DNA of 64,000 nt from positions 3,635,001 through 3,699,000 of the forward strand of contig NZ_CP097800.1 in NCBI RefSeq assembly GCF_000612545.2, read 5' to 3'. The stretch comes from Streptomyces sp. PCS3-D2. Its GTDB lineage: Bacteria; Actinomycetota; Actinomycetes; Streptomycetales; Streptomycetaceae. Both the position numbers and the translations under genes were made by a program. A model generated the notes under the pieces. The model had not been told where the DNA came from and did no database searches. It saw only the letters and a list, made by a program, of their open reading frames with translations. This document shows positions 3,463-28,544 of the stretch, piece by piece (position 1 is the stretch's first letter; each line of letters starts with the position of its first letter).

Positions 3463-3493
3463 TGAGGTTCCCCCGCTGTACGGGTGTGGCTGA

Positions 3494-4719: not shown

Positions 4720-4785
4720 CGTCTGGGCTCCTCTCATGAGACCCATCTGACCCTCTGTCACCCCACCCCGCATCTCGGGGGAACC

Positions 4786-11254: not shown

Positions 11255-13435
11255 TCAGCGGACCGCCGGTTCCAGCAGAGTGAGGGTCGTGTTGTCGAGC
11301 TGGACCGGCACGCCGGTGGGGAGGGTCAGGACCGGGTCGGTGTGGCCGAACTCGAACTCGGTGACGATGGGGAACGCCGTGCCGTGGCAGACATCAAGCA
11401 GGATGCGCTCCAGCTGCTCCCGCTGATCGTCGGACCATAGCCGCGGCCGGCCCAGGACGAGTCCCTCGACGCCGTCGAGCAGGCCCGCGTGGCGCAGCTG
11501 CCACAGGTCCCGGGCCGCCTGGCCGGGGCCGTAGCCGTTGTCGTCGGAGAATTCGAAGGCGAGGACGTGGCCCTGGTAGTCAGGCAGCCACGGCGTGCCG
11601 AGCAGTTGCAGCGCGCTCGGGACGCATCCGGCAAGCAGGGGGCCCTGGGCCAGCCCCGGGCGCAGCACCTTGCGCGGGGGTGCCGGGACGGCGTCGCGCG
11701 GGCGGCTGTCGTCAGCCCAGTCGACGAACTCCTCGATCACCTCGGATGCGGTCGGGAACCGTCCCGTCCAGCCCTGCATGGTCAGCTCGGCGAAGGAGCC
11801 CACAGTGAGCTCGGGGGTACCGCCGTTCTCGGCGAACTGGGACAGCAGCGCCGGGCCGTAGAAGGTCGTGGCGCCGGTCCGGGCGTACAGGGCGTGGTGC
11901 AGCACCGTCGCGTCCGAGTAGCCGCAGAGCACCTTGGGGCGTGCCCCGAACGCCTCGTAGTCGATCAGGGGCAGCAGTTCGCAGGCGTTCAGGCCGCCGA
12001 TCATCCACAGGATGCCCTGGGTTCCGGGGTCGCGTACGGCCCGGTTGAACTCCTCCGCGCGGGCCGTGCGGGACTCCGGGCAGAGCCCGGGCTTCGGGGA
12101 CGAGGTCACCACGGTCAGGCCGGTGCGGGCCGAGAGATCGGCCGAGCCGCGGACCACCCGCTTCGGGAAGACCTCCCCGCCGCGCCAGGACGGGGACACC
12201 ACGGTGACCGTGTCGCCTCCCTTCAGCCGCGGCGGACGCAACCGGGTCTGCCGCAGACGGCGGGCCTGCCCCTCGGAGACACCGTAGGTGGAGCGGAGTT
12301 CCGCGTCCGTGGTGTGCGGGTTTCGGTCCAGCAGGAAGAGCGCGGCGCGCAGGTTGTCGGCCATCGCCCTTTCCCTGCGCCGCCGTTCGGCGCGCAGTAC
12401 GTCGAACAGCTGCCGGGTGGCTCCGAACCGGGTCAGCAGTTGTTCGCCTCCTTCCACGCCGAGCGTGCCGTCGAGCAGGTCCAGCAGTCGCAGCACGAAC
12501 TTCCGCACCACCGACCCGGGGCCCTTGCCGGAGAGCCGGGCGCCGTCCTCCACGAGCATGGTGACGGCGCGGAAGAGGTTCACCGCGTCGGCGGCGGCCG
12601 CGTCCGGGAGGCCCGCCCTGGTGGCCATGGCAACCCGGTCGGCGATCTCCGGCAGGGAGAAGGGGTTTGGACCGTACGGGATCGCGGCGGTGACCTCGGT
12701 GCCGAATCCGACCTCGGCGTACCGGCGTTCGCCGTTGTGGACGACGATCAGATTGGACAGCGGCTGCCAGCGCGGGCACCGGCAGTCGGGCCGGCATTCG
12801 GGTTCGCAGCCCACGTCCGGGCGCCGGTAGTAGTAGGTGATGCCGCGCCCGGTGAGCGGGCTGTCGCTGCCGTACGTCCACCGCGTGCCGACGGTGGAGT
12901 CCGGCAGGACGTGCAGAATACCTCCGTGGCGGGCCGCCGCCTTGCCCACGGAGTCCTGGAGGTCGGTGTCCCGGGAGTCGATGAGGATGTGCAGCCGGTC
13001 CACCGGGGGGTGGCCGAGCGCGGCGAGGGTCGCCAGGTGCGTGTCCTCGGAGATCCGGTCGAGGTCGTCGGGGCTCTCGACGTCGGCGAGCAGGCCGACC
13101 ATGCCGAAGGCGAACAGCCAGGGGTGCTCGCCGTGCGCCCGGAAACACGGCTGGTAGTGGCAGATGGATCCGATGCGACCGCCACGGGCCAGGGCCCGCT
13201 TGTACGGCGTGATGGTCGCGTTGACGAAGGTCACCGACGAGTCCGCGTCAGTGAGCCGGGCCGCGGGGGTCAGTTCGTATCCGCGCTCCGTAAGGGTGTC
13301 CAGGAACGCGGTCACCACACCCCGGGTCGCCGAGCTCCCGCCCACGGACGATGCGGTTGCGAACATCCGCTGCCGAATGGCCGGTTGGCACGGCGGCGGT
13401 GCCGTCCGCGTCGAATGAGGGGCGACGTCAATCAT
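11255..13435 (-). CDS. Hybrid protein: degenerate AlaRS catalytic domain fused to a MccF-like S66 peptidase
   Basis: 726 residues from ATG 13435 (AGGAAG upstream). Residues about 30-260 follow the AlaRS class II fold: TFVNATITPYKRALARGG matches FINAGMAPLKRYFLGE of AlaRS, CFRAHGE sits at motif 2, and WQPLSNLIVVHNG sits at E-I-W-N-x-V-F. Motif 3, normally GxGLER, reads GFGTEV, so the ATP-contacting arginine is missing. A Cys-rich insert (CEPECRPDCRC, 210-220) may bind metal. Residues about 403-726 are an LD-carboxypeptidase/MccF domain with the complete Ser-Glu-His triad: S507 in GYSD, E628 in AFEFSD and H698 in GHTDP. MccF cleaves aminoacyl-AMP mimics and gives immunity to microcin C. I infer self-protection or recycling of an aminoacyl-type product. 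Confidence 0.8.
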   Translation of the reverse strand: MIDVAPHSTRTAPPPCQPAIRQRMFATASSVGGSSATRGVVTAFLDTLTERGYELTPAARLTDADSSVTFVNATITPYKRALARGGRIGSICHYQPCFRAHGEHPWLFAFGMVGLLADVESPDDLDRISEDTHLATLAALGHPPVDRLHILIDSRDTDLQDSVGKAAARHGGILHVLPDSTVGTRWTYGSDSPLTGRGITYYYRRPDVGCEPECRPDCRCPRWQPLSNLIVVHNGERRYAEVGFGTEVTAAIPYGPNPFSLPEIADRVAMATRAGLPDAAAADAVNLFRAVTMLVEDGARLSGKGPGSVVRKFVLRLLDLLDGTLGVEGGEQLLTRFGATRQLFDVLRAERRRRERAMADNLRAALFLLDRNPHTTDAELRSTYGVSEGQARRLRQTRLRPPRLKGGDTVTVVSPSWRGGEVFPKRVVRGSADLSARTGLTVVTSSPKPGLCPESRTARAEEFNRAVRDPGTQGILWMIGGLNACELLPLIDYEAFGARPKVLCGYSDATVLHHALYARTGATTFYGPALLSQFAENGGTPELTVGSFAELTMQGWTGRFPTASEVIEEFVDWADDSRPRDAVPAPPRKVLRPGLAQGPLLAGCVPSALQLLGTPWLPDYQGHVLAFEFSDDNGYGPGQAARDLWQLRHAGLLDGVEGLVLGRPRLWSDDQREQLERILLDVCHGTAFPIVTEFEFGHTDPVLTLPTGVPVQLDNTTLTLLEPAVR

Positions 13436-13584
13436 CTTCGTCTTCCTTGATCGGTGATCCACCCTGAAGAGAGCGCTTACCGCCGGCGCCCAGCCGCCCC
13501 GGGGACTCGGGGCGCGGGCCGGGATCGGTGCCCCCGGCCGTTCCAGCATTCGCCAGCGAGCGGGCGGCGGACAGCGCTCCGCTG

Positions 13585-13614
13585 TGGCACCTACTCCCCT
13601 GGCAGCTTGGTGCC
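13585..13614 (-). promoter_or_regulatory. Cluster operator-like element, site 1
   Basis: Read on the minus strand, toward the hybrid gene: GGCACCAAGCTGCCA directly followed by GGGGAGTAGGTGCCA. The two 15-nt units each end in AGSTGCCA, and the first is itself a near-palindrome. It lies 149 nt before the start codon. The same element occurs at 19051, 24516 and 28419, always in this orientation to an operon. A binding site for the cluster regulator is the simplest reading. Confidence 0.75.
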
Positions 13615-13898
13615 CGGAGCGCAGCCGCCCACGATAAATGGATGAATCGGAAATAAATGGGCATTTCACTGTCAGGCTTATGCCATCATCAGCTGCGCGG
13701 GCACGGCGGTCCGGCGTTCGGTGTTCGGGGACTCGGCATCGGCGAGGACTGCCCGACGCGCCACGCGTGGAACTCGTCGAATTCGCCTGGGCCTGGGAGT
13801 TGTTCGGGTCGGTACGGCACCGATGTCCGCAGCCCCGCCCACGGGCCCTGCCTGCCCCACACCCGTACGCATCATTCCCCAGGAATCAGGCACTCCAT

Positions 13899-16526
13899 AT
13901 GATCCGAACATTCACCAGCGATGAGATACGGGACACGTTCCTGGAATTCTTCGTCGAGAAGAACCACACCAGGATCGACTCTGCGTCGGTCATTCCAGTG
14001 AACGACCCGTCTCTTCTCTTCATCAACGCCGGTATGGCGCCGCTCAAGCGCTATTTCCTCGGCGAGGTACTGCCGCCCGCGGCGGACCTCTGCAATGTCC
14101 AGCCGTGCGTGCGAACCAACGACATCGCCGATGTCGGCGACCGCCACCACCTGACGTTCTTCGAAATGCTCGGCAGCTGGTCGATCGACAACTACTTCAA
14201 GGAACGCGCCGTCGAGTTGGCTTTCGAGCTGCTCACCGGGCGCTTCGGATTCCCCGCGGACAAGCTGTACGTCACCGTCTACCAGGGCGACCCGGCCCTC
14301 GGCCTGCCGCCGGACGACGTATCGGCCGCCGCCTGGGAACGGGTCGGCATCGCCCGCGACCACATCGTGTACCTCGGCGAGGACAACTTCTGGTCCACCG
14401 GCGACACCGGCCCCTGCGGCCCGTGCACCGAAGTGTTCTACGACACCGGCGCCGAGCACGGTGAGGAGTACCGGCCGGGCCTGGAATTCGACACGAAGAG
14501 CCGGTACATCGAGATCTGGAACGCCGGCGTCTTCATGGAGTTCGACAAGCAGCCGGACGGCCGCTTCGAGCGCCTGCGTTTCCCCAGCGTGGACACCGGG
14601 TCCGGACTGGAGCGCATGGCCATGGTGCTCCAGGGACATGACTCGGCGTACGAGACCGACCTGCTGGCCCCGATCGTCCGGGCGGTCCGGGAAGGCCTGG
14701 GCGGAGCGGCGGCCTCCGAGCGGGACGTCCGGATCGTCTCCGACCACATCCGGTCCTCGACCTTCATGCTGAGCGAGGGCGTCGTACCCTCCAACGACGG
14801 CCGCGGCTACATTCCGCGGCGCCTGCTGCGCAAGGCGATCGCCGTGGCCACCCGCAGCGGCTACCACGAAATCGACGTGCCCGAGCTGGCGGGGGTCGTG
14901 ATCGACGGGCTGAAGGGCGCCTACCCCCAGCTCGGCCGCAACCGGGACCGCACACTGGAGCTGCTCGGCCGGGAGCAGCGAGACTTCGGCCGGGTCGTCC
15001 GGCGCGGCCTGGACCAGCTGTCCGGGCTCGCCACCGGCCCCGGGTTCCGGATCTCCGGCGAGGAAGCCTTCAACCTGTACGCCACCCAGGGCATGCCGGT
15101 GGACCTCATCCGCGACTTCGCCGCGGAGCAGGGCGGTTCGGTGGACGAAGCGCGCTTCACGGAGCTGTTCTCGGCCCACCGCGAGCTGTCCCGAGGCGGT
15201 ACGGGCAAGGCCGACGCCGGTGATCCGAAGGGCGCCGTACGGACCCTCGCGCCCGAGTTCACCACGGCCATCGGCTCGGTCACCACGGAGTTCCTCGGCT
15301 ACGAGCGACTGGAGTCCGAGTCCCGGGTCGTCGCCCTGGCCGGCCCGGACGGGCCCGCCGACAGCCTTGGCGAGGGCGAGCAGGGCCTGGTGGTCCTGGA
15401 CCGCACGCCCTTCTATCCGGAGGGCGGCGGCCAGGTCGGTGACACCGGCACGATCACCGGACCGGAGCTGTCCGCAGAGGTGACCGACACCCGCCGGATC
15501 GGCGGGCACCACGTGCACGTCGTCCAGGTCTCGAAGGGCGTGCTGCGAGTCGGCGACACCCTGGACCTGTCCGTGGACGCGGCCCGCCGCCGGGCGACGA
15601 TGCGCAACCATTCGGCGACCCACCTGCTGCACGCGGTGCTGCGCGAGGTGCTCGGCGACCAGGTGCGGCAGGCGGGCTCGCTCGTCGCGCCCGACCGGTT
15701 GCGGTTCGACTTCGAGCATCCCCGGGCGCTCACCGAGGAGGAGGCCGACCAGGTCGAGCGCCTGGTCAACGGCCGGGTGCTGGTGAACGCCGGCCGGGAC
15801 GTGCAGGTGAAGCCGTACCAGGACGCGGTGCGCGACGGAGCGGTCGCCTTCTTCGGCGACAAATACGGCGACGACGTCCGGGTGGTCTCGTTCGGGGACG
15901 TCAGCAGCGAGCTGTGCGGCGGTACGCACGTGTCCGGCACGGCCGAGATCGGCCTCTTCCGGATCGTCGGCGAGGGCAGCGTGGGCGCCGGCGTCCGCCG
16001 GATCGAGGCGGTCACCGGTGAGGCCGCACTCGCCTACACCCTGGACCGCGACCGGACCCTCAAGCAGCTCGCCGGCCGGCTGCGGGTATCGGCGGAGCAA
16101 CTGCCCGCGCGGATCGAGGCACTCGCGGCCAAGGAGCAGAAGCAGGCCCGGCAGACCCGGATCAGTGCGCAGTCGCTGGCCGCGGAGGTCCGCGAACCGG
16201 GGTCCGGACGACGGTACGTCCTGCTCGTCGATCCGCCTCTGGACCCCCAGCAGATGGCGGACGAGGCCGGCCGGCTCGGCGAAGAGCTGAACGCCGTCGT
16301 GCTGTTCCTGCTGCCGGACGGCACCGGGACCCTCCGCATCGGCGTGGGGGTGCCGGCCGCACTGGGCGGGCAGGGCACGGCCAAGGAACTGCTGGAACAG
16401 GTGCTGACGGTGACCGGCGGCCGGGGCGGTGGCAGCGCCCGGTTCGCCCAGGGCGGCAACATCACCGTCCCCCTGGCCGAGGCCGCGGCGGCCGTCCGCA
16501 CGGTGCTGGAGGACGCTTCCGCATGA
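13899..16526 (+). CDS. alaS: Full-length alanyl-tRNA synthetase, cluster copy
   Basis: 875 residues. I take ATG 13899 because SDEIRDTFLEFFVEKNH is the canonical AlaRS N-terminus; the frame is open further upstream but not AlaRS-like. The class II core has CVRTNDIADVGDRHHLTFFEMLG (motif 2) and VDTGSGLERM (motif 3, about residue 235). The editing domain is intact, with H571-x3-H575 and C673-G-G-T-H677, and a C-Ala/DHHA1 region follows, so it should charge and proofread tRNA-Ala. The core differs from what I remember of Streptomyces housekeeping AlaRS (MLGSWSIDNYF against MCGNFSFGDYF). Divergent from the AlaRS-MccF hybrid. A target-protecting second AlaRS is likely; supplying Ala-tRNA for biosynthesis is the alternative. 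Confidence 0.92.
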   Translation: MIRTFTSDEIRDTFLEFFVEKNHTRIDSASVIPVNDPSLLFINAGMAPLKRYFLGEVLPPAADLCNVQPCVRTNDIADVGDRHHLTFFEMLGSWSIDNYFKERAVELAFELLTGRFGFPADKLYVTVYQGDPALGLPPDDVSAAAWERVGIARDHIVYLGEDNFWSTGDTGPCGPCTEVFYDTGAEHGEEYRPGLEFDTKSRYIEIWNAGVFMEFDKQPDGRFERLRFPSVDTGSGLERMAMVLQGHDSAYETDLLAPIVRAVREGLGGAAASERDVRIVSDHIRSSTFMLSEGVVPSNDGRGYIPRRLLRKAIAVATRSGYHEIDVPELAGVVIDGLKGAYPQLGRNRDRTLELLGREQRDFGRVVRRGLDQLSGLATGPGFRISGEEAFNLYATQGMPVDLIRDFAAEQGGSVDEARFTELFSAHRELSRGGTGKADAGDPKGAVRTLAPEFTTAIGSVTTEFLGYERLESESRVVALAGPDGPADSLGEGEQGLVVLDRTPFYPEGGGQVGDTGTITGPELSAEVTDTRRIGGHHVHVVQVSKGVLRVGDTLDLSVDAARRRATMRNHSATHLLHAVLREVLGDQVRQAGSLVAPDRLRFDFEHPRALTEEEADQVERLVNGRVLVNAGRDVQVKPYQDAVRDGAVAFFGDKYGDDVRVVSFGDVSSELCGGTHVSGTAEIGLFRIVGEGSVGAGVRRIEAVTGEAALAYTLDRDRTLKQLAGRLRVSAEQLPARIEALAAKEQKQARQTRISAQSLAAEVREPGSGRRYVLLVDPPLDPQQMADEAGRLGEELNAVVLFLLPDGTGTLRIGVGVPAALGGQGTAKELLEQVLTVTGGRGGGSARFAQGGNITVPLAEAAAAVRTVLEDASA

Positions 16527-16570
16527 CGGACGGCTGCCCGTAGCCGGGCGGCGGGCGCACAGCGCGCGCA

Positions 16571-16604
16571 GGGCCTCCCACCCGTGGGTACGGGTGGGAG
16601 GCCC
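16571..16604. terminator. Terminator hairpin after alaS
   Basis: Perfect 15-bp stem GGGCCTCCCACCCGT with loop GGGT, 45 bp after the alaS stop. First of two hairpins in the convergent gap between alaS and the P450 gene. Confidence 0.85.
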
Positions 16605-16652
16605 TGGCCGTTGTCCCGGGCGCAGCACCGGCACGGAGGCCGGTACGCGAAA

Positions 16653-16704
16653 GCGAGGGTTCCGGGTGGACCGCCGATGACGGCGGTCCACCCGGAACCC
16701 TCGC
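16653..16704. terminator. Long perfect hairpin before the P450 stop
   Basis: 24-bp perfect inverted repeat (arms 16653-16676 and 16681-16704) with loop ATGA, 33 bp beyond the P450 stop. It terminates the minus-strand methyltransferase-P450 operon; with the previous hairpin it insulates the two convergent units. Confidence 0.85.
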
Positions 16705-16736
16705 GACGCAGGACAACGGTGTACGGATGGCAGAGG

Positions 16737-17948: not shown

Positions 17949-17979
17949 GATCAGTTCAGCTCAGCTCGATGCCGGGTCA

Positions 17980-18822
17980 TCAGGCCGGGCGGCGGCTGAC
18001 GACGAAGAGGTTGTTGCCGCGCGGGGCGATGCCCGGGGTGGTGCGCAGCCGGTTCTCCATCTCGAAGATCCGGTCGACGTTGTCGTCGGCCAGGATGTCC
18101 ACCAGCTTCTCGGTGGAGCCGTGCAGCTGGGTCTCCTGGTAGCCCGGGTAGATCAGATTCGGGAAGCCGGAGACCACCGCCAGCTCCAGGCCGGCGGCCG
18201 CGTGCATCTTCTCGATGCGCTCGAGGTCGAACAGGTGCATGTCCGGCATCTGGGTGGTGAAGCGGCCGCGGCGGCCGAGGGCCTTCTCGGCCTCGTCCAG
18301 GTTGCCCACGCTGATGTTGAAGAAGGCGGTGTGCCAGACGCTCGGCAGGAACGACACGAGCAGGCCGCCCGGGTTGAGCAGACCGGCGATGTCGGCGATG
18401 ACCTTCTCGGGGTCGGCGACGAAGCCGAGGACGTTGTGGAAGTTGAAGGCGAGGTCGAACGTCTGGCCGTCCAGGGTCTCGGAGACGTCGGCCAGGTCAC
18501 CGCGGACGAACGAGACCCGGTCGGCGAAGCCGCGGCGCTGGGCCTTCTCCTCGGCGACGCCCAGCATTTCGGCGGTCAGGTCGAAGGACGTACCGCGGCT
18601 CGTCGGCGCCTGCTCGGCGAAGAAGGTGGTCCAGCGCCCGGTGCCGCAGCCGGCGTCCAGGAAGCGGAAGCCCTCGGGCAGCCGCGAGAGCACCTCGTCC
18701 TTCAGGGCAGCGGCCAGCAGCCGGTCGGACAGCATCCAGTACGGCTGGAGGTCGACGTCGTCGTAGGCCTCGGCCTTCACGGAAAAGTAGTCCTGGACCT
18801 CGGCGAGCAGGGTCTCGGTCAT
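17980..18822 (-). CDS. Class I SAM-dependent methyltransferase
   Basis: 280 residues from ATG 18822 with AGAGGAG upstream. Motif I is FLDAGCGTGRWTTFFAEQ (SAM binding), then SFDLTAEML, motif II FDLAFNFHNVLGFV and motif III LLNPGGLLVSF. The C-terminal half after residue 180 carries MHLFDLERIEKMHAAAGLELAVVSGFP, common in small-molecule O/N-methyltransferases. First gene of the methyltransferase-P450 operon and divergent from the AsnRS-like operon. Substrate unknown. Confidence 0.9.
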   Translation of the reverse strand: MTETLLAEVQDYFSVKAEAYDDVDLQPYWMLSDRLLAAALKDEVLSRLPEGFRFLDAGCGTGRWTTFFAEQAPTSRGTSFDLTAEMLGVAEEKAQRRGFADRVSFVRGDLADVSETLDGQTFDLAFNFHNVLGFVADPEKVIADIAGLLNPGGLLVSFLPSVWHTAFFNISVGNLDEAEKALGRRGRFTTQMPDMHLFDLERIEKMHAAAGLELAVVSGFPNLIYPGYQETQLHGSTEKLVDILADDNVDRIFEMENRLRTTPGIAPRGNNLFVVSRRPA

Positions 18823-19050
18823 GAAAGGTAACTCCTCTGAAGGTGATGCGTTGCTCCGGCACGGCCCGCCGCGACACGAAAAGCGAAATGCCCGACGCGG
18901 CACCGCAACGGCACGGTCTGACGGCGCGGGACAAGAAGGGCACGCGGAAACTCGGCGAATCTTGCGCCGAAGGGGCCCTGCCGAAGGATGATGGCGTGAA
19001 TGTATCCCCGGACTTGTGCGGCAATCAACGACGGAATCCGTCCCGGGGCA

Positions 19051-19080
19051 GGCACCAAGCTGCCACGAACATAGCTGCCA
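19051..19080 (+). promoter_or_regulatory. Cluster operator-like element, site 2
   Basis: GGCACCAAGCTGCCA directly followed by CGAACATAGCTGCCA, read toward the AsnRS-like gene and ending 192 nt before its ATG. Its first 15 nt are identical to site 1. It lies in the 450-bp divergent region shared with the methyltransferase-P450 operon and so may serve both. Confidence 0.75.
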
Positions 19081-20292: not shown

Positions 20293-21806
20293 CCCGACCG
20301 CCTTCCTGGCGCGGGGCCGATCTCACCACCAGGATCGCGGAACTGGCCTCCGAGGTGCTGGAGGTACCGATCGGGTCCGGCACCGACCTGGCGGAGGCCG
20401 GGCTCGAACCGAGCGCTGCGATCCGGCTGGCGGCCTGCGTGTACGAGGAGTTCGGCCTCCGCCTGTCCGTCGCGGACATCTACACGGGACGGACGCCCGG
20501 CCGCATCGCGGCCGGGCTCTGCCGGCCGGGGGCGGGAGGCGGAGCCCCCGCCCCCGGCCGGCACCTTCCGCACGTGGGAGCGGAGTCCGGGCGGCCCGCC
20601 GATGTCGTGTCCCTCGCCTATACGGGCACCGGGGACCTCGGGATCGACCCGGGCCGCCTGACCACGGCGCTGAAGATGGTGGCCGCCCGCCAGGCCGCCC
20701 TGCGCACCCCGCCCGGCGAGGCGGGGAACGACGCCCACCGATCCGCGGTCCTGCCGGACTGGGACCGGCTGGGCGTCGACGTCGTACCCGTGCCGGACGC
20801 CGGTTGGGAGGCCCTGCAGCAGGCCCGCGACCTCGCCGCGGCGGGAGCCCTGGAGGGGCTCGACACCGTCCGTGGCCCCCTGGTGCGCTGCGCCCTGTAC
20901 ACCTGGAACGGCGGACGTCTGCTGGCCGTCCATCTGCACCGCAGTGCACTTGACCCCTGGTCGCTGGACGCCTTCGAGCGCGAGCTCGAGAGCGCCTACG
21001 CGGCCGCCCGTCCCTCGGACCCCGAGGACTCCGGACGGGCGGCCTGCGCCGTCCACCCGTCGGCGGGCGGCACCGAGCCCCGGCCCGCGGTGGCCGACTG
21101 GCAGCAGCGGCTGGCGGCGCTTCCCCCGATCGCGTGGCCGGCCGGGGCACCGGACGGAGACGAGGACGGCGGCGCCGACGGCGGCGAGGACCGCGGCGAC
21201 GTGGTCGAGTGGGCCGTCCCGGTCGACGACGTGCTGCTGGGGCGGCTTCGTGCGGCGACCCGCGCCCTGGGCGTTTCCCTCACCTCCCTGGTGCTCACCG
21301 CGTACGCGCGTGGTCTGGCGGAGTTCACCGGGCAGCAGGAGTTCCGGGTCGGCCTGGTGGTCTCGGGCCGGGTGGAGCCGTGGCAGGAGCCGACGCTCGG
21401 CCGCCGGGTGCTCACGCTCCTCGTCCAAGTGCGGGGCGTACCGGGCGAGTCGCTGGTCTCGCTGGCGCGGCGTTGTGACCGGGAGCTGCTGTTCTCGGTC
21501 GACCACGGGTGGTACGGCGACACGTCGGCACCCCTGCTCCAGGCGACCCTGTGCGTGGAACCGGGCGAGCCGGCCAGGGGTTTGCGTCTCGGCACGTCGC
21601 TGCTGGCGCCGGCACACCTGCCCCGCTCCGCCCCCTCCACCGACCTTGCCGCGGAGCTCTTGCGGGCCGACCGACCCGGCGGCGCGCGGCAGTTGATGTT
21701 CACCGCGGACCCGTCCCGGATCGGGGCGCGGGGCCTGCGCCGGCTCGCGGATGCGATCCGCACCGCGCTCATGGAGCTGGCCGCGGAGGCCGTCGCCGAG
21801 GTCTGA
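20289..21806 (+). CDS. Degenerate carrier protein-condensation domain fusion
   Basis: 505 residues from GTG 20289, overlapping the previous stop (GTGA). Residues about 15-77 look like an acyl/peptidyl carrier protein, but the loop that should read G-L-D-S-L is AGLEPSAAIRL: proline 41 sits at the phosphopantetheine serine and S42 is shifted by one. Residues about 105-500 have NRPS condensation-domain architecture; the HHxxxDG motif is H217-R-S-A-L-D-P, losing the second histidine and the glycine. Both catalytic signatures are therefore altered, pointing to a scaffold or a repurposed acyltransferase for the AsnRS-like partner. No adenylation domain is present in the window. Confidence 0.7.
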   Translation: MTRPPSWRGADLTTRIAELASEVLEVPIGSGTDLAEAGLEPSAAIRLAACVYEEFGLRLSVADIYTGRTPGRIAAGLCRPGAGGGAPAPGRHLPHVGAESGRPADVVSLAYTGTGDLGIDPGRLTTALKMVAARQAALRTPPGEAGNDAHRSAVLPDWDRLGVDVVPVPDAGWEALQQARDLAAAGALEGLDTVRGPLVRCALYTWNGGRLLAVHLHRSALDPWSLDAFERELESAYAAARPSDPEDSGRAACAVHPSAGGTEPRPAVADWQQRLAALPPIAWPAGAPDGDEDGGADGGEDRGDVVEWAVPVDDVLLGRLRAATRALGVSLTSLVLTAYARGLAEFTGQQEFRVGLVVSGRVEPWQEPTLGRRVLTLLVQVRGVPGESLVSLARRCDRELLFSVDHGWYGDTSAPLLQATLCVEPGEPARGLRLGTSLLAPAHLPRSAPSTDLAAELLRADRPGGARQLMFTADPSRIGARGLRRLADAIRTALMELAAEAVAEV

Positions 21807-21839
21807 AGCGGGGGCAGGACTTCGTCCTGCCCCCGCTTC
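21805..21839. terminator. Bidirectional terminator between convergent operons
   Basis: 16-bp perfect stem GAAGCGGGGGCAGGAC with a TTC loop, beginning inside the stop codon of the carrier-condensation gene and lying 25 bp from the MFS stop. Confidence 0.85.
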
Positions 21840-21863
21840 GGACCGCTTCATCCTGCCCCGGCG

Positions 21864-23117
21864 TCAGACCGCTTCGGGCTGCAGCGTCGGCTCCGCGGGC
21901 TGCGCCGTGCCGGACAGCCGGAGCACCCAGGCCAGCAGTGCGGTGGCCGCGGTGGTCACCGCCGCGACGAGCACCCAGGTCCGGGCCATGCCGTGGTCGG
22001 CGAGCAGACCCGCGGCGAACGGCCCGGCGGTGAACCCCAGCGAGGTGGAGATCCCGAGGAGGGCGTTCGCCCGCCCCCGGTCGGCGCTGGTCGCGGCGGC
22101 GTTGACCAGGGTCGGCATCGCCATGGAGTAGAAGGCCGCGCCCACGGAGGCCACCGCCACGCCCGCACAGATCGCGGTGAGCATCACGACCCGGGACCCG
22201 GTCTCGAGCGCCCCGAGCAGCACGACCCAGAACACCATCCAGGTCAGCGCGGCGATCGCCAACGACACCCGGTGCGGGGTGCGCTTGACCACCGGCATCA
22301 GGGCGATCTGTGCGATCACGGCGAAGGCGGTGTCCGCCAGGCATATCAGCGCGATGTCCGAGGGGCGGACGTCCGAGAGCGCGACCAGCACGGCGGGAAT
22401 ACCCGACTCCAGCTGTGAGTAGCCGATGGCGAACATCAGGAAGGCGACGAGCAGCGCCGCGAGCAGCGGCCCGTTGGCCAGCACCCGCAGGTAGGAGGAC
22501 TGCCGCCCGTGCTCTTCCGGCTGATTCACCGGGGCCGACAGGCGCTTGCCCGCGACGACGGTGATCAGCCCGGCCAGGACGAAGGTGATGGCGTCGGCCA
22601 GATAGACGACCTGGAACGTCCACAGGTGCTCGATGCTGACGACGATCCCGGCCAGGATGCCGCCGATGCCGAGCGCCGCGTTGGCGACACCGAAGGAGAA
22701 CCCGAACACAACCGGGTGCCGGTCGGCTTCCACCGCCTCGGCGAACAGCCCGTGCCAGACGCTGGTGCCTCCCACGCCGAGCCCGAAGACCGCCCCGGCC
22801 GCGAGGGCGTGCCAGGGCGCCGTGACCCACGCGTACAGTCCGGTGCCGGTCGCGGCGAGCAGCAGCGCGGTGAACACGATGCGCACGCTGCCGAACCGGT
22901 CGGCGGCCCAGCCGGCCACCAGCCCTCCGGCGAAAGCGGTCACGGAGGTGAGGGCCATCGCGCTGGTGGCGACGGAGATCCCGAAGCCGCGCCCCTGGAC
23001 CAGATAGATGACGAGCAGCGGGAGGACCAGGCCGGACCCGAAGGACGTGACCGCTCTGGCCAGCAGCAGCAGCTTCGCCGGGGCGGGCAGCTCCCGGAAG
23101 TCCTGGACGACGGTCAT
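21864..23117 (-). CDS. MFS transporter, probable product exporter
   Basis: 417 residues, 12 predicted membrane helices. The loop after helix 2, GWAADRFGSVRIV, is the MFS G-x-x-x-D-R-x-G-x-R signature; a related GRANALLGISTSLGFTAGPFAAG block appears in the second half. The ATG overlaps the TGA of the ATP-grasp gene (ATGA), so it is co-translated. As the only transporter in the cluster it is the likely exporter and a resistance element. Confidence 0.9.
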   Translation of the reverse strand: MTVVQDFRELPAPAKLLLLARAVTSFGSGLVLPLLVIYLVQGRGFGISVATSAMALTSVTAFAGGLVAGWAADRFGSVRIVFTALLLAATGTGLYAWVTAPWHALAAGAVFGLGVGGTSVWHGLFAEAVEADRHPVVFGFSFGVANAALGIGGILAGIVVSIEHLWTFQVVYLADAITFVLAGLITVVAGKRLSAPVNQPEEHGRQSSYLRVLANGPLLAALLVAFLMFAIGYSQLESGIPAVLVALSDVRPSDIALICLADTAFAVIAQIALMPVVKRTPHRVSLAIAALTWMVFWVVLLGALETGSRVVMLTAICAGVAVASVGAAFYSMAMPTLVNAAATSADRGRANALLGISTSLGFTAGPFAAGLLADHGMARTWVLVAAVTTAATALLAWVLRLSGTAQPAEPTLQPEAV

Positions 23118-24355
23118 GCTGCAGCCCCGTCGGCGGGCGTCGTCTCGAGGACGAGGGCGGATTCGAGGACGAGGACCCGCTCGGTGAACTGCTCCTCGCT
23201 GTCGGCACCGATGACCAGGGTCATGCCGGGCGCCAGGCTGTTCGTCCAGACGACGTCACCGACACGGGCGGTCCGGTCGACGTCCAGGACGTACGGGAAC
23301 GCGCTGATCTCGGCGTCCGCGGGCTCGCGGGTGATACGGCCCGGCGTACGGGGGGTCAGCATGACCCAGCCGATGTACGGGTGGGGCGGCTCGGACAGCG
23401 GCTGCGACCGCCGGTCCGGGCTGACCAGGGACTCGGCCCACACCTCGCGCAGGTCGGCCCCGCGGGCCCGGAAGGCCTGGGTGGTGCCGCCGCCGCCCGG
23501 ACGGGTGGCGATCTCGGAGAACCACAGGCTGCCGTCCGGGGAACGGAACAGCTCGGTGTGCGTGATGCCGTCGGTGATCTCCAGCGCCTCGTTGACCCGG
23601 CTGTGCAGTTCCTCGACGGCCGCGTACAGCTCGGGTTCGCGGGCTGCGGGGAGCTGGATCGCGCCGTTGAGGTGGCCGGGGTCGTCGAGTTCGATTCGGG
23701 GGCGCAGGTACCTGCTGACGGCGAACTCCCAGGCCTTGCCGTCCACCCAGACCGCGTCGACGTGGAACTCCTCGCCGTCGATCATCTGCTCGGCCATGAA
23801 TTGACCGTCCGCGGCGTTCACCGCGAGCCAGGCCTCCAGTTCCCGGGCCGTCCCGACCCGGGCGGTGCTGACCACCCCGGCACCGGCGACGGGCTTGACC
23901 ACGGCCGGGAATCCGATCTCCCGCTCAACATGGCGGGCAGCCGCCCCCGGGTCGCCGGACGGGACCGTGGTGAAGCGCGCGGTGGGCACGCCGAGCCGCC
24001 GGACCGCGGTCTTCATCGCGCGCTTGTCGCGGACCTGGACACTCTGGACGATGGTGGGCCGGCCCAGGCCGAGCAGAGCGGCCAGGTACGCCGCGGCGAA
24101 CTGGCCCCGCTCGCAGACGCTCAGTACCCGGTCGAAGGCCAGTCCCTCCTCCTGGAGACCCGTGACGAGCAGGGCCAGTTCGTCCATGGCCTCGAAGCTG
24201 TCGATCCGGATCAACCGCTCCAGCCGGCCGGTGATCCCGGGGTCGAGATGGCGGTGCTCGGCCTCCCAGGCGTCGATGAGCAAGACGACGTCCACGCCGC
24301 GGGACAACAAGGCCTCGATGGCGCCCACTTCCCAACGACAGACCAGATACCGCAT
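23114..24355 (-). CDS. ATP-grasp ligase 1
   Basis: 413 residues from ATG 24355 (GAGGTG upstream). An N-terminal Rossmann-like domain (LVCRWEVGAIEALLSRGVDVVLLI) is followed by the ATP-grasp fold: VRDKRAMKTAVRRLGVP, FPAVVKPVAGAG with ATP-binding K154, MAEQMIDGEEFHVDAVW, and metal-ligand region LWFSEIATRPGGG. Family members activate a carboxylate as acyl phosphate and join it to an amine, as in dipeptide ligases (BacD, PGM1). Paralogue of the second ATP-grasp at 26867. Operon with the MFS exporter; site 3 lies 160 nt upstream. Substrates unknown. Confidence 0.88.
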   Translation of the reverse strand: MRYLVCRWEVGAIEALLSRGVDVVLLIDAWEAEHRHLDPGITGRLERLIRIDSFEAMDELALLVTGLQEEGLAFDRVLSVCERGQFAAAYLAALLGLGRPTIVQSVQVRDKRAMKTAVRRLGVPTARFTTVPSGDPGAAARHVEREIGFPAVVKPVAGAGVVSTARVGTARELEAWLAVNAADGQFMAEQMIDGEEFHVDAVWVDGKAWEFAVSRYLRPRIELDDPGHLNGAIQLPAAREPELYAAVEELHSRVNEALEITDGITHTELFRSPDGSLWFSEIATRPGGGGTTQAFRARGADLREVWAESLVSPDRRSQPLSEPPHPYIGWVMLTPRTPGRITREPADAEISAFPYVLDVDRTARVGDVVWTNSLAPGMTLVIGADSEEQFTERVLVLESALVLETTPADGAAA

Positions 24356-24515
24356 GAAACACCTCGTGCAATCTTCCGTGGGCGGGACCCGCCGATGCCG
24401 CCCCGGACAGGGAGATGCATGCCGCGGATTTCTCTTCCGATACCCCACCCCTACAGATATGAATTCCGTGGATAAATTGTCGTGGCGGGATTATCGGGAA
24501 CTCAATCGATCCGCC

Positions 24516-24545
24516 GGGCAGCTTGGAGACTGGCACCTTGATGTC
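24516..24545 (-). promoter_or_regulatory. Cluster operator-like element, site 3
   Basis: Minus strand, toward ATP-grasp 1: GACATCAAGGTGCCA followed by GTCTCCAAGCTGCCC, 160 nt before the start. It shares the divergent region with the regulator gene at 24683, so the regulator could also control itself from here. Confidence 0.75.
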
Positions 24546-24682
24546 ACCTCACACCGCATCCCTACCCTTCCGATCAGGGATGATCACACTCTGTGACGAC
24601 CTTGGACATGGCAGCACCTGCGGGCTACAGTTCCTCGGCGGTGCGACGCCCTGAATCGACCACCCAGGGCTGAAGAAAGAGA

Positions 24683-25729
24683 ATGCAAATGATCTTGGAG
24701 CGCCTCGGGGGCGATGCGGCGGATTCGACGGATTCGACGGACCCCGTACTCGAATGCCTCGGCCTGACCCGGCTCGCGGAGTCGATGTACCAGCTGCTGC
24801 TCCAGCGTCCCGAATGGGACACGCCCGAGCTGGCCGTGGAACTCGGCAGCACCGAGGAGGCGGTCGAGGCGAGCCGCGCCGAGCTGGCGGGGCTGGGCCT
24901 GATCTGGCCGTCCCACGAGAACCCCGGCCGCATGGTCGCCATACAGCCGAACCTGGGCCTCGGCGCGCTCATCGCCGAGCGGGAGGCCGCGCTCCTGAAG
25001 GAGCAGCACGAGCTGCAGCAGGCACGCACGGCGATGATGAACCTGATGCGGGAGCGGGAGGCCGCCCAGGGCGCCCGCGAGACCGGCGAGATCGAGTACC
25101 TGCGCAGCCTCGACTCGACCAGGAACCGCATCGCCGAGCTCTCCAAGGACGTACAGTCGGAGATCCTCGCGCTGATCCCCAAGGCCGGGCTGTCACCCGA
25201 GAGCCTGGAAGCCAGCCAGAAGCTGGACGGCGAGGTACTGGCCCGCGGGGTGTCGCTGCGCACCCTGTACCTGGACAGCGTCCGCAACCACCCCGCCACC
25301 CAGCAGTACGCGGTCTGGCTCACCGGTCTCGGCGGTGAGATCCGCACCGTGCCCACCCTGCCGATGCGCATCATCGTGATCGACCGCAAGACGGCCATCC
25401 TGCCCATCGACCCCAAGGACAGCCGCGCCGGAGCGGTGCTGATGCGCGAGGAAAGTGTGATCGCCGCCGTCATCGCCCTCTTCGAGCGGCTGTGGGAATC
25501 GGCACTCCCGCTCGGCACCTCGGGGCAGCGCGACGACCAGGGCCTCACGGCGCAGGAGCGCGAGCTGCTGCGCATCCTGGCCTCCGGGCTGACGGACGAG
25601 GCGGCGGGCAAGCGGTTGGGGCTCTCCCTGCGCAGCGTCCGCCGGGTCATGGCGGACCTCATGACCCGGCTGGAGGCGCGCAGCCGCTTCGAGGCCGGGG
25701 TGCGCGCCGTGGAGTGCGGCTGGCTGTAG
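24683..25729 (+). CDS. Cluster regulator: TrmB-like N-terminus with LuxR-type HTH
   Basis: 348 residues. The N-terminal part (CLGLTRLAESMYQLLLQRPEWDTPELAVELGSTEEAVEASRAELAGLGLI) is a TrmB-type winged helix. A coiled coil (residues about 95-150, EREAALLKEQHELQQA) follows, then an effector-like domain (VSLRTLYLDSVRNHP), and a C-terminal LuxR HTH (LTAQERELLRILASGLTDEAAGKRLGLSLRSVRRVMADLMTRL). This architecture is common for pathway-specific regulators in Streptomyces clusters. It is the only regulator in the cluster and the best candidate for binding the 30-bp elements at all four promoters. Confidence 0.9.
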   Translation: MQMILERLGGDAADSTDSTDPVLECLGLTRLAESMYQLLLQRPEWDTPELAVELGSTEEAVEASRAELAGLGLIWPSHENPGRMVAIQPNLGLGALIAEREAALLKEQHELQQARTAMMNLMREREAAQGARETGEIEYLRSLDSTRNRIAELSKDVQSEILALIPKAGLSPESLEASQKLDGEVLARGVSLRTLYLDSVRNHPATQQYAVWLTGLGGEIRTVPTLPMRIIVIDRKTAILPIDPKDSRAGAVLMREESVIAAVIALFERLWESALPLGTSGQRDDQGLTAQERELLRILASGLTDEAAGKRLGLSLRSVRRVMADLMTRLEARSRFEAGVRAVECGWL

Positions 25730-25796
25730 CCGAAGGCCGACGGCGCCGGACCCCCTGATCGAGGGCCCGGCACCGCACGGGCTCACGGCCTCGCGT

Positions 25797-26870
25797 TCAG
25801 CCGGCCGGTGCCGCACCGGCCGCCGCGTGTACCGGAACCGGGCGCATCCAGCCATGGGGGTCCTGCTGGACGCCGTACTGGATGGCGGCCAGCTCGTCCC
25901 GCAGCATCGTGGTGATCTTCCCCGGGCGCCCGTCGCCGATCCGGACACGCCCCTCTGCCGTGGTCACTCCGCCGATGGGCACCACCGACGCGGCGGTGCC
26001 GCAGGCGAACGCCTCCGTGACCTTCCCGTCGCCGGCCGTCAGCTCGTCCAGCGCGACGGGCCGTTCGACGACCCGCACGCCCAGGTCCGGCGCGATGCGC
26101 AGCAGGCTGTCCCGGGTGTTGCCGGCCAGGATCGTCCCCGAGAGCTCGGGAGTGACCAGGAGTGGAGCGCCGTCCTCGTCCCTGGTCACACAGAAGAAGT
26201 TCATCGCGCCCAGTTCCTCCACCCAGCGGCGCTCTTCCGCGTCCAACCACAGCACCTCGTGGCAGCCCTGGGCCACTGCCTCCGCCTTGGCGGCCAGGCT
26301 GCCCGCATAGTTGCCGGCGCACTTGGCCGCCCCCGTGCCCCCGCGGGCGGCACGGATCTGGTCGCTCGCGCACCACACTTCGATGGCCTGGTAGCCGTCG
26401 GCGAAGAAGTGGTCGACGGGGGAGGCGATAACGGCGAACAGGTACTCCAACGCCGGCCTGACGCCCAACGAGGGCTCCACTGCGATCATGAACGGGCGCA
26501 GGTACAGGCTCTGCCCGGGCCCGCGCGGCACCTGGTCGGCGTCCGCCCGGACCACCGTCTCGCACGCCTCGACGAACAGCTCCTCGGGCAGTTCGGGCAT
26601 GGCCAGACGACCGGCGCTGCTGTTGAAGCGCTCCGCGTTGGCCCCGGGCCGGAACAGGGCGAGTGAGCCGTCCGGCTGCGGATAGGCCTTGAGCCCCTCG
26701 AAGATAGCCTGGCCGTAGTGCAGGGCCATGGCGGCGGGGGACAGGGCCAGCGGACCGTGCTCGGTCAGCTCCACGCCGGACCATCCCGCCCCGTGGATCC
26801 ACCGTGCGACCGCCATGTGCTCCGTGAAGTGCCGGCCGAAGCCGAGCCCTGCCGTGCTCACCCGGCTCAC
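25797..26870 (-). CDS. Branched-chain amino acid aminotransferase (class IV PLP)
   Basis: 357 residues from GTG 26870, which overlaps the TGA of ATP-grasp 2 (GTGA). Conserved class IV features: ALHYGQAIFEGLKAY, LYLRPFMI, the PLP-lysine region GGTGAAKCAGNYAGSLAAKAEA, the E-L-x-x-M-N-x-F motif in VEELGAMNFF, and SGTILAGNTRDSLL with KVTEAFACGTAASVVP. It interconverts Val/Leu/Ile, or a related unusual amino acid, and the 2-oxo acid. Probably supplies a building block for the ATP-grasp ligase it is coupled to. The housekeeping IlvE would be elsewhere. Confidence 0.9.
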   Translation of the reverse strand: MSRVSTAGLGFGRHFTEHMAVARWIHGAGWSGVELTEHGPLALSPAAMALHYGQAIFEGLKAYPQPDGSLALFRPGANAERFNSSAGRLAMPELPEELFVEACETVVRADADQVPRGPGQSLYLRPFMIAVEPSLGVRPALEYLFAVIASPVDHFFADGYQAIEVWCASDQIRAARGGTGAAKCAGNYAGSLAAKAEAVAQGCHEVLWLDAEERRWVEELGAMNFFCVTRDEDGAPLLVTPELSGTILAGNTRDSLLRIAPDLGVRVVERPVALDELTAGDGKVTEAFACGTAASVVPIGGVTTAEGRVRIGDGRPGKITTMLRDELAAIQYGVQQDPHGWMRPVPVHAAAGAAPAG

Positions 26871-28108
26871 TGCCCCATCACGTAGGACGGCAGCAGCGCT
26901 GCCTCCAGCTCCGCGGCCCGCCGGCGGAACTCGGCCTCGCTGTCCGCGCCGAGGACCAGCAGCGTGCACCAGACCGAGGGGTGCAGCTCGCCTATCTCGG
27001 AGCCGACCGGGCGGCTGCGGACTGTCTTGAGCACGTACGGGAAGCGGGAGATGAGTTCGTCAGACGGATCCTCCAGGATCCGTCCGGTGCCGGCAGGCGC
27101 GAGGTTGATCCACCCGATATAGGGGTACGGCGCCGTCTTCACGGGCAGCTCCTCGCCGGGCTCGCCCAGGGCCGCGGCGATCCACAGCTCCCGCAGGTCA
27201 GCACCCTGCGGCCCGAAGCTCTCCGGGATAGCGCCGCCGGCGAAACGGGTGGCCATCTCGGAGAACCACAGCTCACCGTCCGCTCGCCGGAAGATCTCCA
27301 GGTGGGTGATCTCGTCGGTGATGCCGAAGGCGGTGTTGATGCGCTCGTGCAGATGCTCGATCTCCTCGTACAGCGCGGCCTCGCGGTCGCGGGGGAGGAG
27401 GATCGAGCCGTTGTCGCGGCCCGGCGTCGTGACCGTCATCCGCGGGCGGAGGTACCGGCTGACGCCGAAGACCCGCGCCTTCCCGTCGGCCCAGACCGCG
27501 TCCACGTGGTACTCGTCACCGTCCAGGACCTGTTCGGCCATCAGGAACTTGACCGTCGCGTCACGGCCCGCCTCCCGCAGGGCCTCGGTGAGCTGCGCCG
27601 CGTCCTCGGCCTTGAAGGTGTCGACCGAGCCCAGGCCCGCGGCCGGCTTCACGATGACCGGGAACCCGAGCTCCTGCTCAACCTGCCGCACCGATCCCTC
27701 GATGTCCCGAGTGGACAGGGAGACGTAGCGGGCACAGCGGATGCCGGCCTGCTGGGCGCGGTCCTTCATCGCGCGCTTGTCCCGCATGAGCACGGAGGTC
27801 TCGACGGCGGGCAGCGCCAGGCCCAGCAGCTGTGCCAGGTAGGCGGCACCGAACTGGCTGAACTCGGAGAGGCTGAGCAGCCGGTCGATCTTCACACCGT
27901 TGGAGCGGATGTCCACGGCCAGCTGCGCCAGCTCGTCGAGGGCGTCGAAGCTGCGGATCACGTAGTGGCGGTCGACCCGGTCCAGCAGCTTCTGGTCGAT
28001 GCCCCGGTTGGCGGCCTCCCACTCGTCGAATACCAGGGTCACAGAGGCGCCCCGGTCGAGTACGGCCTCCAGCGTGACCCGGTCCCATCGGCACACCAAG
28101 ACATTCAT
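26867..28108 (-). CDS. ATP-grasp ligase 2
   Basis: 413 residues from ATG 28108 (GGGAGAAG upstream). The same architecture as ATP-grasp 1 with clear sequence identity throughout: N-terminal LVCRWDRVTLEAVLDRGASV, VLMRDKRAMKDRAQQAG, FPVIVKPAAGLGSV, MAEQVLDGDEYHVDAVW, and LWFSEMATRFAGG at the metal site. The duplication suggests two successive amide-bond steps with different substrates. Second gene of the peptide-ligase-aminotransferase operon, 34 bp after the 52-residue peptide gene. Confidence 0.88.
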   Translation of the reverse strand: MNVLVCRWDRVTLEAVLDRGASVTLVFDEWEAANRGIDQKLLDRVDRHYVIRSFDALDELAQLAVDIRSNGVKIDRLLSLSEFSQFGAAYLAQLLGLALPAVETSVLMRDKRAMKDRAQQAGIRCARYVSLSTRDIEGSVRQVEQELGFPVIVKPAAGLGSVDTFKAEDAAQLTEALREAGRDATVKFLMAEQVLDGDEYHVDAVWADGKARVFGVSRYLRPRMTVTTPGRDNGSILLPRDREAALYEEIEHLHERINTAFGITDEITHLEIFRRADGELWFSEMATRFAGGAIPESFGPQGADLRELWIAAALGEPGEELPVKTAPYPYIGWINLAPAGTGRILEDPSDELISRFPYVLKTVRSRPVGSEIGELHPSVWCTLLVLGADSEAEFRRRAAELEAALLPSYVMGQ

Positions 28109-28142
28109 TTGCTTCTCCCTACGTCCTTCTCGCGATGCCGGA

Positions 28143-28301
28143 TCAGTCCCAGTTGAGGCTTCTCAGAGGGGCGGTGGCCACGCCGGCCGTGGTCTCGGCC
28201 GACGCGGAGTTCACCGTGTCCCCGGTTCCGAATTCGGCCGCCCCGAACGCGACGGCGATGAGCGCGACAAAGACGGCAACGGCATTCCTGACACACTTCA
28301 T
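28143..28301 (-). CDS. 52-residue secreted-type or precursor peptide
   Basis: ATG 28301 with a strong GGGGGAAG site upstream. It has a basic start (MKCVRN), a hydrophobic stretch AVAVFVALIAVAFGAA, then a 30-residue tail ending APLRSLNWD. It is the first gene of the operon with ATP-grasp 2 and the aminotransferase, and site 4 lies 117 nt upstream. ATP-grasp ligases that modify ribosomal peptides are known (pheganomycin, graspetides), so it could be a precursor whose C-terminus is the core. A secreted signal peptide is the alternative. I know no homologous family for certain; the gene call rests on start site, position and composition. Confidence 0.65.
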   Translation of the reverse strand: MKCVRNAVAVFVALIAVAFGAAEFGTGDTVNSASAETTAGVATAPLRSLNWD

Positions 28302-28418
28302 GTGCAGCTTCCCCCGTGGTTCACTACCGGTATTCGGCCGGATCGTTTTGCGTTCCGGCCCGATTTCCCCTTGTGGTGATCCTGCATGAGGAGCCGCGGC
28401 GGGCCCAAGGGATGTAGC

Positions 28419-28448
28419 TGGCAGCATGGAGTCTGGCACCTTGGTGTC
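28419..28448 (-). promoter_or_regulatory. Cluster operator-like element, site 4
   Basis: Minus strand, toward the peptide gene: GACACCAAGGTGCCA followed by GACTCCATGCTGCCA, 117 nt before the start. Differs from site 3 at only a few positions. It is the right-hand functional edge of the cluster. Confidence 0.75.
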
Positions 28449-28544
28449 ACTCTGCTGCGGGCCCCGCCCAGGGGCTCGGCGGTTGCCGGGACCCGCATCG
28501 TTGCCCGTGCTCCCGCGGGAGATGCCGACATCCGTAGCCGAGAA

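Follow-up and report, generated by a model that had tools for sequence, protein, structure and literature searches.

A Streptomyces gene cluster combining an AgnA-like enzyme with relatives of alanyl-tRNA synthetase may direct the synthesis of an alanyl-adenylate mimic

What does a gene cluster built around relatives of aminoacyl-tRNA synthetases make, and at what is its product aimed? The question is raised by positions 11255 to 28449 of a 64,000-nucleotide stretch (the window; positions 3,635,001 to 3,699,000 of contig NZ_CP097800.1) of the 7.6 Mb genome of Streptomyces sp. PCS3-D2. An initial annotation, made from the letters of the window, had listed in this interval a hybrid of alanyl-tRNA synthetase (AlaRS) and MccF, a complete AlaRS, an asparaginyl-tRNA synthetase (AsnRS)-like catalytic core, a degenerate carrier-condensation protein, two ATP-grasp ligases, an aminotransferase, a P450, a methyltransferase, an exporter, a regulator and a small peptide gene. 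All of these genes were found there by Pfam and NCBIfam searches and by reading of open reading frames (ORFs). It is probable, in our judgement, that they form a LuxR-controlled cluster for an alanyl-adenylate mimic, an N-alanyl phosphoramidate nucleotide, aimed at AlaRS. Product, target, LuxR control and each of the chemical steps are inferred from the genes.

The homologies, the active-site residues kept or lost, the linkage across genomes, the extra AlaRS copies and the shared promoter element were all seen directly. Among the homologies, that of the AsnRS-like protein is central. A tblastn search of plasmids matched it to agnA of pAgK84 ('Agrocin84-synthetase') with 39% identity over 97% of its length, which marks the gene as an AgnA homologue. 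AgnA is described as a truncated AsnRS that lacks the anticodon domain and has become a biosynthetic enzyme (PMC4392301; statements on this and the other papers cited refer to the excerpts available). In the family tree AgnA sits on a long branch and its own position is unsure. Streptomyces amritsarensis holds an AsnRS-like protein 97% identical to that of the window. When the family was aligned with Escherichia coli AsnRS and aspartyl-tRNA synthetase (AspRS), all 19 family rows showed the motif-2 Arg-x-Glu, and 18 of them read GFG in motif 3 (GFR in locus L028; loci and genomes are given by labels beginning with L and G). The Lys of AspRS was absent and the Glu of AsnRS kept in all 19. Since these residues, which we take to distinguish the two enzymes, are of the AsnRS type, the alignment favours asparagine as the substrate. 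Microcin C's MccB forms its P-N bond from Asn, and this suggests a parallel chemistry for the AsnRS-like enzyme.

The database matches of this protein allow another reading, because NCBIfam names related proteins asparagine synthetase A. The enzyme might be an AsnA-like asparagine or amide synthetase and the product an Ala-containing, non-nucleotide peptide amide, with AlaRS and MccF serving resistance only; the ATP-grasp, aminotransferase and carrier-condensation genes would suit a peptide. We consider this highly improbable, given that the NCBIfam scores lie below their cut-offs (best 228.8 versus 322), that the protein is related to AgnA and that MccF and spare synthetases recur beside this subfamily. 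A plain asparagine synthetase was ruled out because of the same sub-cut-off score.

Counted on its longest ORF, the gene predicted to supply the acyl group encodes an AlaRS-like domain at about residues 79-478 and, in the same protein, an MccF-type S66 hydrolase at residues 479-804. The C-terminal half matched a solved MccF at 145.6 bits (E 1.5e-41), and the aligned motifs GYSD, FEF and GHTDP keep the Ser-Glu-His catalytic motifs of S66/MccF. The Pfam AlaRS match of the N-terminal half stayed below its cut-off (19.9 versus 30.3 bits). A profile of eleven AlaRS-like domains searched against solved structures returned 15 sequences at E 0.01, all of them AlaRS, and an AlphaFold2 model of the domain from ten alignment rows reached a predicted local distance difference test (pLDDT) of 83 and a predicted template modelling score (pTM) of 0.80. 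The domain is truncated, lacking the editing and C-terminal domains, as is the AcmF type. Compared with E. coli AlaRS it keeps the motif-2 Arg, carries Val for the motif-3 Arg and Glu for the motif-3 Asp, and reads WLFAFGMVG in the motif-2 loop where E. coli has HHTFFEMLG.

A similar arrangement is described for ascamycin. There, the truncated AlaRS-like protein AcmF lacks most of the residues for ATP and Ala activation (N219Q, D232E), depends on Glu232 and acylates the sulfamate NH2 of dealanylascamycin with Ala taken from Ala-tRNA; this Ala-tRNA is made by AcmD, a full-length AlaRS encoded in the same cluster, which is more resistant than canonical AlaRS (PMC12945691). The window likewise pairs a truncated AlaRS-like protein with a degenerate ATP site and a full AlaRS, and the pair fits the AcmF/AcmD pattern except at the Asn/Gln position, the comparison with AcmF being one of described residues and not of an alignment. 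A synthetase-like enzyme that passes an amino acid from its tRNA to an NH2 group is also described for SB-203208, although this enzyme, SbzA, is related to isoleucyl-tRNA synthetase, of class I, and its acceptor is a sulfonamide (PMC6331615).

The AlaRS-like domain was found in nine AgnA-like lineages and in 0 of 20 control regions (defined below). A profile of seven such domains reaches more divergent members than a single query does and also picks up L021, L075, L042 and L026. A copy from Peribacillus retains motif 3. The fusion to MccF is seen in the window and in the S. amritsarensis relative of the cluster (L021) only; in the other lineages the two are separate proteins. A fusion considered for L075 was rejected, as the N-terminal part of its 738-aa frame does not read as MccF; in L075 the MccF and AlaRS-like proteins are encoded by adjacent genes. 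This distribution bears on an alternative in which the fusion is a self-immunity sponge, its degenerate pocket capturing the mimic for hydrolysis by MccF, and an ATP-grasp ligase attaches the Ala. MccF is known as an immunity enzyme and carries that name in the solved structures, its Ser/Glu/His motifs are intact in the hybrid, the AlaRS-like pocket lacks the motif-3 Arg, and the cluster holds two ATP-grasp ligases. We nevertheless regard the sponge as unlikely: the restricted occurrence of the fusion and the intact motif 3 of the Peribacillus copy speak against it, as does AcmF, which has lost similar residues and is a transferase in biosynthesis (PMC12945691).

The complete AlaRS of the window (TIGR00344, 750 bits) is one of three in the genome; the others lie at 6.28 Mb, taken as the housekeeping copy, and at 3.6257 Mb, 23 kb from the window copy. 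A quick tree of 17 rows groups the copies of the window and L021 with the cluster copy of L069/L110 (support 99). Next to join (98, a grouping at which the program warns of long branches) is a pair formed by the AlaRS copy of a Peribacillus plasmid and the long AlaRS L127 from the genome of L040, for which no place in an AgnA-like cluster was established. Copies taken as housekeeping stand apart. The AlaRS of L109, the closest relative cluster in another species, groups with the third AlaRS of the genome (100), so that the pathway may have this third copy as a further resistance gene. It lies beyond the left end of the window (L005:5529-10380; genome 3623.5-3628.4 kb); the genes ahead of it encode a phosphoribosyltransferase-domain protein and a product whose nucleotidyltransferase match stays below threshold. 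In L109, a free-standing aminoacyl-tRNA editing domain protein (L109:3335-3976) directly follows the cluster AlaRS. Second full AlaRS copies elsewhere in genomes with AgnA-like loci were also seen (L122, L123, L124 and L126); these form one clade (100).

Known systems show how such parts may work together. Agrocin 84 is an antibiotic used in the biocontrol of crown gall. Its agn region on pAgK84 carries the MccF-like agnC5, methyltransferases and the agrocin-resistant leucyl-tRNA synthetase (LeuRS; other synthetases are abbreviated likewise) agnB2. The window cluster thus resembles that of agrocin 84 in an AsnRS-like synthetase without anticodon domain, an MccF-like gene, methyltransferases and a spare synthetase, resistant in the case of agrocin 84, but its spare is an AlaRS and not a LeuRS. 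In addition, the annotation of the agn region, in which several genes are 'hypothetical', has no AlaRS-like transferase, ATP-grasp, carrier-condensation or P450 gene. With microcin C, the cluster shares an MccF homologue with its catalytic motifs and an expected product of the phosphoramidate aminoacyl nucleotide type; among the cluster genes and scanned flank proteins there was no ThiF-like MccB, and no microcin C peptide gene was recognised by eye. Phosmidosine is the prolyl O-methyl phosphoramidate of 8-oxoadenosine. Three loci (L029, L052 and L058) hold an AgnA-like gene with a methyltransferase, a xanthine-dehydrogenase-like molybdoenzyme, a ProRS-like protein and MccF. This is the set that phosmidosine would need, a second link between the AgnA-like gene and P-N chemistry, and we predict that these are candidate phosmidosine-type clusters; the window cluster has neither the ProRS-like nor the xanthine-dehydrogenase-like gene. 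Phosmidosine is described as a phosphoramidate nucleotide (PMC6429109) and listed as a probable ProRS inhibitor (PMC7689648).

In the pathway that we propose, the AgnA-like enzyme would activate asparagine with ATP and, by an MccB-like route, place nitrogen onto the nucleotide phosphate (P-N). The MccF domain may free the P-NH2 nucleotide, destroy the product inside the cell, or both. The AlaRS-like domain fused to it would act as AcmF does and transfer Ala from Ala-tRNA to that NH2, with the complete AlaRS, in the manner of AcmD, making the Ala-tRNA and remaining active in the presence of the product. The methyltransferase, P450, aminotransferase, carrier-condensation protein and two ATP-grasp ligases would decorate the compound, probably with a peptide-like group for uptake or masking, and the exporter of the major facilitator superfamily (MFS) would release it. 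If the methyltransferase is directed at the phosphate, the product would be neutral and more permeable, as phosphate methylation makes phosmidosine. A small peptide-like product alone, which the initial annotation had offered beside an aminoacyl-adenylate-like compound, is less likely than a (peptidyl-)alanyl nucleotide.

The AcmF/AcmD-like pair would also suit an ascamycin-type product, a nucleoside alanyl sulfamate. We hold this to be very unlikely. No sulfamate-forming or sulfotransferase-type match was present among the cluster genes and the flank proteins scanned with Pfam, a set that does not comprise every ORF of the window, and the conserved partner is AgnA-like, as in the phosphoramidate agrocin 84. 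Ascamycin is a sulfamate whose hydrolase, AcmE, is an alpha/beta hydrolase and not MccF, and the excerpts of its description mention no AgnA-like gene (PMC12945691).

To ask how widely the gene set recurs, AgnA-like loci were gathered by similarity to the AsnRS-like protein of the window. Within the genus, 100 of 393 genomes gave a match of any strength, 20 of them above 300 bits (the window's own included), and the 20 strongest of the 100 genomes plus one weak one were read. A search of genome contigs gave 30 AgnA-like loci. Among plasmids, 64 records matched at some strength, a number that counts ordinary AsnRS too, and six regions were opened. After the near-duplicates L021, L075, L076 and L059 were dropped, 53 loci were scored (L030 and L032, 95% identical, were both kept). 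As controls we used 20 random 20-kb regions at round-number positions in nine same-genus genomes, the window's included; these are unmatched to the loci from other genera.

The whole set was found in S. amritsarensis at 76-97% identity, and a Peribacillus plasmid carries a matching set of AlaRS, AlaRS-like, AsnRS-like, MccF, MFS and ATP-grasp genes with a methyltransferase of another type. Seven loci (L045, L047, L048, L065, L067, L070 and L073) form a side clade (100) with neither MccF (0/7) nor methyltransferase (0/7), which probably represents a different product class. Outside it, MccF lies within 10 kb in 36 of 46 loci, some methyltransferase in 34, both in 29 and either in 41. The MccF of the window as sole query also found 36 of the 53 loci, while its methyltransferase found 17 at E 1e-5, of which 14 share at least 40% identity with it, a count that takes in the window itself and a fragment of 46 residues. 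The idea of a universal trio of AsnRS-like protein, MccF and one methyltransferase was therefore weakened: with methyltransferases of several types, MccF is the only common partner. With these queries, MccF, methyltransferases and the kinds of synthetase searched for were all absent above 50 bits from the 20 control regions, which contained one P450 and one aminotransferase match. The gene set thus recurs beyond chance. A homologue of the window's P450 (83% identical) was found in an AgnA-like locus (L062) of genome G147, and regulator homologues in L022, L075 and L109. Separately, on a Pantoea agglomerans plasmid, an AgnA-like core lies inside a longer gene annotated as a GNAT acetyltransferase and adjoining an MFS gene (L053:11410-13005), with no MccF within the stretch read; this is possibly an unusual minimal variant.

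Within the window, the cluster is held together by a putative promoter element, GGCASCWTGRNGNC. All six matches in the 64-kb window (0.19 expected) lie in four intergenic gaps of the cluster, and none of 100 shuffles reached six; this enrichment is descriptive, as the pattern was written from the same sites. Firmer, independent support comes from L021, where four matches fall in the same four gaps. With its seven alternating transcription units, the region could have been a chance neighbourhood of unrelated genes. We give this next to no probability and ruled it out by the recurrence and the shared element: the whole set and the positions of GGCASCWTGRNGNC are conserved in S. amritsarensis, and MccF accompanies AgnA-like genes at the frequency given above against 0 of 20 controls. 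The co-occurrence in other genomes that the initial annotation had looked to is thereby found. By comparison of genes, it also supports what that annotation had proposed: an aminoacyl-adenylate-like product connected to alanine or alanyl-tRNA metabolism, and a likely role of the spare AlaRS and MccF in self-resistance.

The synthetase beside the AgnA-like gene differs among loci. An apparently extra synthetase, for which not every second copy was checked, was found in 20 of the 46 loci, with queries that left out GlyRS, ValRS, LysRS, GluRS, GlnRS and CysRS; the GlyRS cases came from Pfam. The spares are AlaRS in the window, L023, L054 and L069, GlyRS in L022, L026 and L042, PheRS in L036, L060 and L062, LeuRS in L051, L055 and L061 (a second LeuRS is not established for L061), MetRS in L024, L030, L032, L044 and L063, ThrRS in L028, and ProRS in L035 (464 aa, versus a 626-aa copy elsewhere in that genome). 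Where the spare is a chromosomal AlaRS, PheRS, MetRS, ThrRS or ProRS, a further copy was seen in the genome; for the plasmids L051, L054 and L055 a chromosomal copy was assumed. Six loci (L050, L052, L058, L064, L066 and L068) have only a truncated synthetase-like protein. We did not count the synthetases of L029, L037, L039 and L040, possibly the only copies of their genomes, or that of L057, a 26% AsnRS-like match.

The GlyRS is of the fused alpha-beta type (L022:1366-4374, L026:5634-8738 and L042:15592-18738; Pfam was read on that of L042, to which the other two are 61-72% identical) and stands beside AlaRS-like and AgnA-like genes. It occurs once in each of these three genomes, inside the cluster, in 0 of 2 other Streptomyces-type genomes searched and in 7 of 14 control genomes. 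This distribution suggests that an imported gene replaced another, and the three loci are candidate GlyRS-targeting clusters.

The truncated class II protein agrees with the spare in the window, L054 and L069 (Ala), L028 (Thr), L036 (Phe) and L035 (Pro). There is also a wider reading, which we consider evenly balanced between true and false. In it, a large class of aminoacyl-nucleotide antibiotics, spread across phyla, would have AgnA-like enzymes as its common chassis; in each cluster a truncated class II synthetase-like protein or another acylating enzyme would set the amino acid, and the spare synthetase would reveal the target (Ala, Gly, Phe, Leu, Met, Thr or Pro), readable from DNA. The window would be the AlaRS member, with acyl transfer and hydrolysis in one protein.

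Several findings weigh against the proposed alanyl-adenylate mimic. The reaction of AgnA itself is not shown in the literature covered. The Asn before motif 3 is kept in the hybrid, unlike AcmF with its N219Q, assuming that the positions match. As a single query against the 393 genomes of the genus, the AlaRS-like domain matched clearly in two, that of the window and G155 (200.7 bits), with eight further genomes at 20-24 bits. The nearest relatives, L022 and L023, have no window-type methyltransferase in the stretch read, in which L023 also has no AlaRS-like domain, and the MccF of L069 lies outside 10 kb. Fifteen of the 46 loci are without a synthetase of the kinds searched. Moreover, the truncated protein does not match the spare in L055 (Pro-like with LeuRS), in L060 and L062 (Ala-like with PheRS), or in L022, L026 and L042 (Ala-like with GlyRS), and these mismatches are the main weakness of the idea that the acylating enzyme sets the amino acid. 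The partners of AlaRS-like proteins (Ala, bacterial-type Gly and Phe) all belong to subclass IIc, in which a published table places AlaRS, bacterial-type GlyRS and PheRS (PMC7916415).

The arrangement of the cluster is given in Table 1. The initial annotation had described seven alternating units tied together by overlaps and a shared promoter element. The strand order gives seven units, the element was found as described, and four-base GTGA overlaps join the AsnRS-like and carrier genes (20289-20292) and the second ATP-grasp and aminotransferase genes (26867-26870), a layout that points to translational coupling of each pair. The overlap of the hybrid and AlaRS genes did not stand: both likely start inside their longest ORFs, which makes the overlap of these two divergent genes an artefact. 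HHxxxDG is the usual condensation-domain motif, and at its position the carrier-condensation protein reads HRSALDP; its condensation domain looks degenerate, as had been claimed. The right boundary at 28449 is likewise good, since the last GGCASCWTGRNGNC pair ends one base before it. The small peptide gene heads the unit of the second ATP-grasp ligase and the aminotransferase, and counterparts with an identical LNWD end lie upstream of the same two genes in L021, L022, L075 and L023; the peptide might act as a signal to the LuxR-type regulator or serve an ATP-grasp ligase as substrate. At the other side, positions 1-6000 of the window have a lower GC content and encode a DUF6602 protein and an integrase-core transposase, which suggests a mobile or recombined border.

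Table 1. Genes and putative promoter elements of the cluster (window coordinates)
Feature	Coordinates	Strand	Remarks	Basis
Truncated AlaRS-like domain fused to MccF-type S66 hydrolase	11255..13669	-	Likely start near 13435	Pfam, alignment, profile, model
Putative promoter element GGCASCWTGRNGNC, copy 1	13601..13614	+		
Complete extra AlaRS (catalytic, tRNA_SAD and DHHA1 domains)	13896..16526	+	Likely extent, start inferred; longest ORF 13638-16526	Pfam, TIGR00344
Cytochrome P450	16737..17948	-	Putative tailoring	Pfam/NCBIfam
Class I S-adenosylmethionine methyltransferase	17980..18903	-	Likely start 18822	Pfam/NCBIfam
Putative promoter element GGCASCWTGRNGNC, copy 2	19051..19064	-		
AsnRS-like catalytic core (tRNA-synt_2)	19273..20292	+	Without anticodon domain; AgnA homologue by sequence	Pfam/NCBIfam, tblastn
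Carrier protein with degenerate condensation domain	20289..21806	+		Pfam/NCBIfam
MFS exporter	21864..23117	-	Predicted	Pfam/NCBIfam
ATP-grasp ligase 1	23114..24448	-	Likely start 24355	Pfam/NCBIfam
Putative promoter element GGCASCWTGRNGNC, tandem copies 3 and 4	24517..24545	+		
LuxR/GerE-type regulator	24683..25729	+	Putative pathway control	Pfam/NCBIfam
Class IV aminotransferase	25797..26870	-	Branched-chain type	Pfam/NCBIfam
ATP-grasp ligase 2	26867..28108	-	47% identical to ligase 1	Pfam/NCBIfam, alignment
Small secreted-type peptide, 52 aa	28143..28301	-	C-terminal SLNWD	Counterparts in relatives
Putative promoter element GGCASCWTGRNGNC, tandem copies 5 and 6	28420..28448	+	Right cluster edge	

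Missed by the initial annotation were the homology to AgnA, the resemblance to AcmF and the membership in a wide family. Its remark that no described pathway came to mind holds for the set as a whole, while parts of it are known, namely AgnA in agrocin 84 and an AcmF-like transferase. In the open-access literature, outside which lie most subscription papers and all of bioRxiv, no account came to light of this cluster, of the class of AgnA-like loci, of the rule for reading targets or of phosmidosine genes; a prior description elsewhere is possible. Ascamycin aside, we know of no natural product aimed at AlaRS. Two reviews name none besides ascamycin in the excerpts available (PMC7916415, PMC12945691). 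If our reading is true, the cluster would provide both a new inhibitor of AlaRS and a resistant form of its target. The formation of the P-N bond in agrocin 84, phosmidosine and their kin would become testable, with one small enzyme family predicted to be responsible. If the rule holds across the family, the spare synthetases would offer a target-labelled handle for genome mining, leading to antibiotics against up to seven synthetases.

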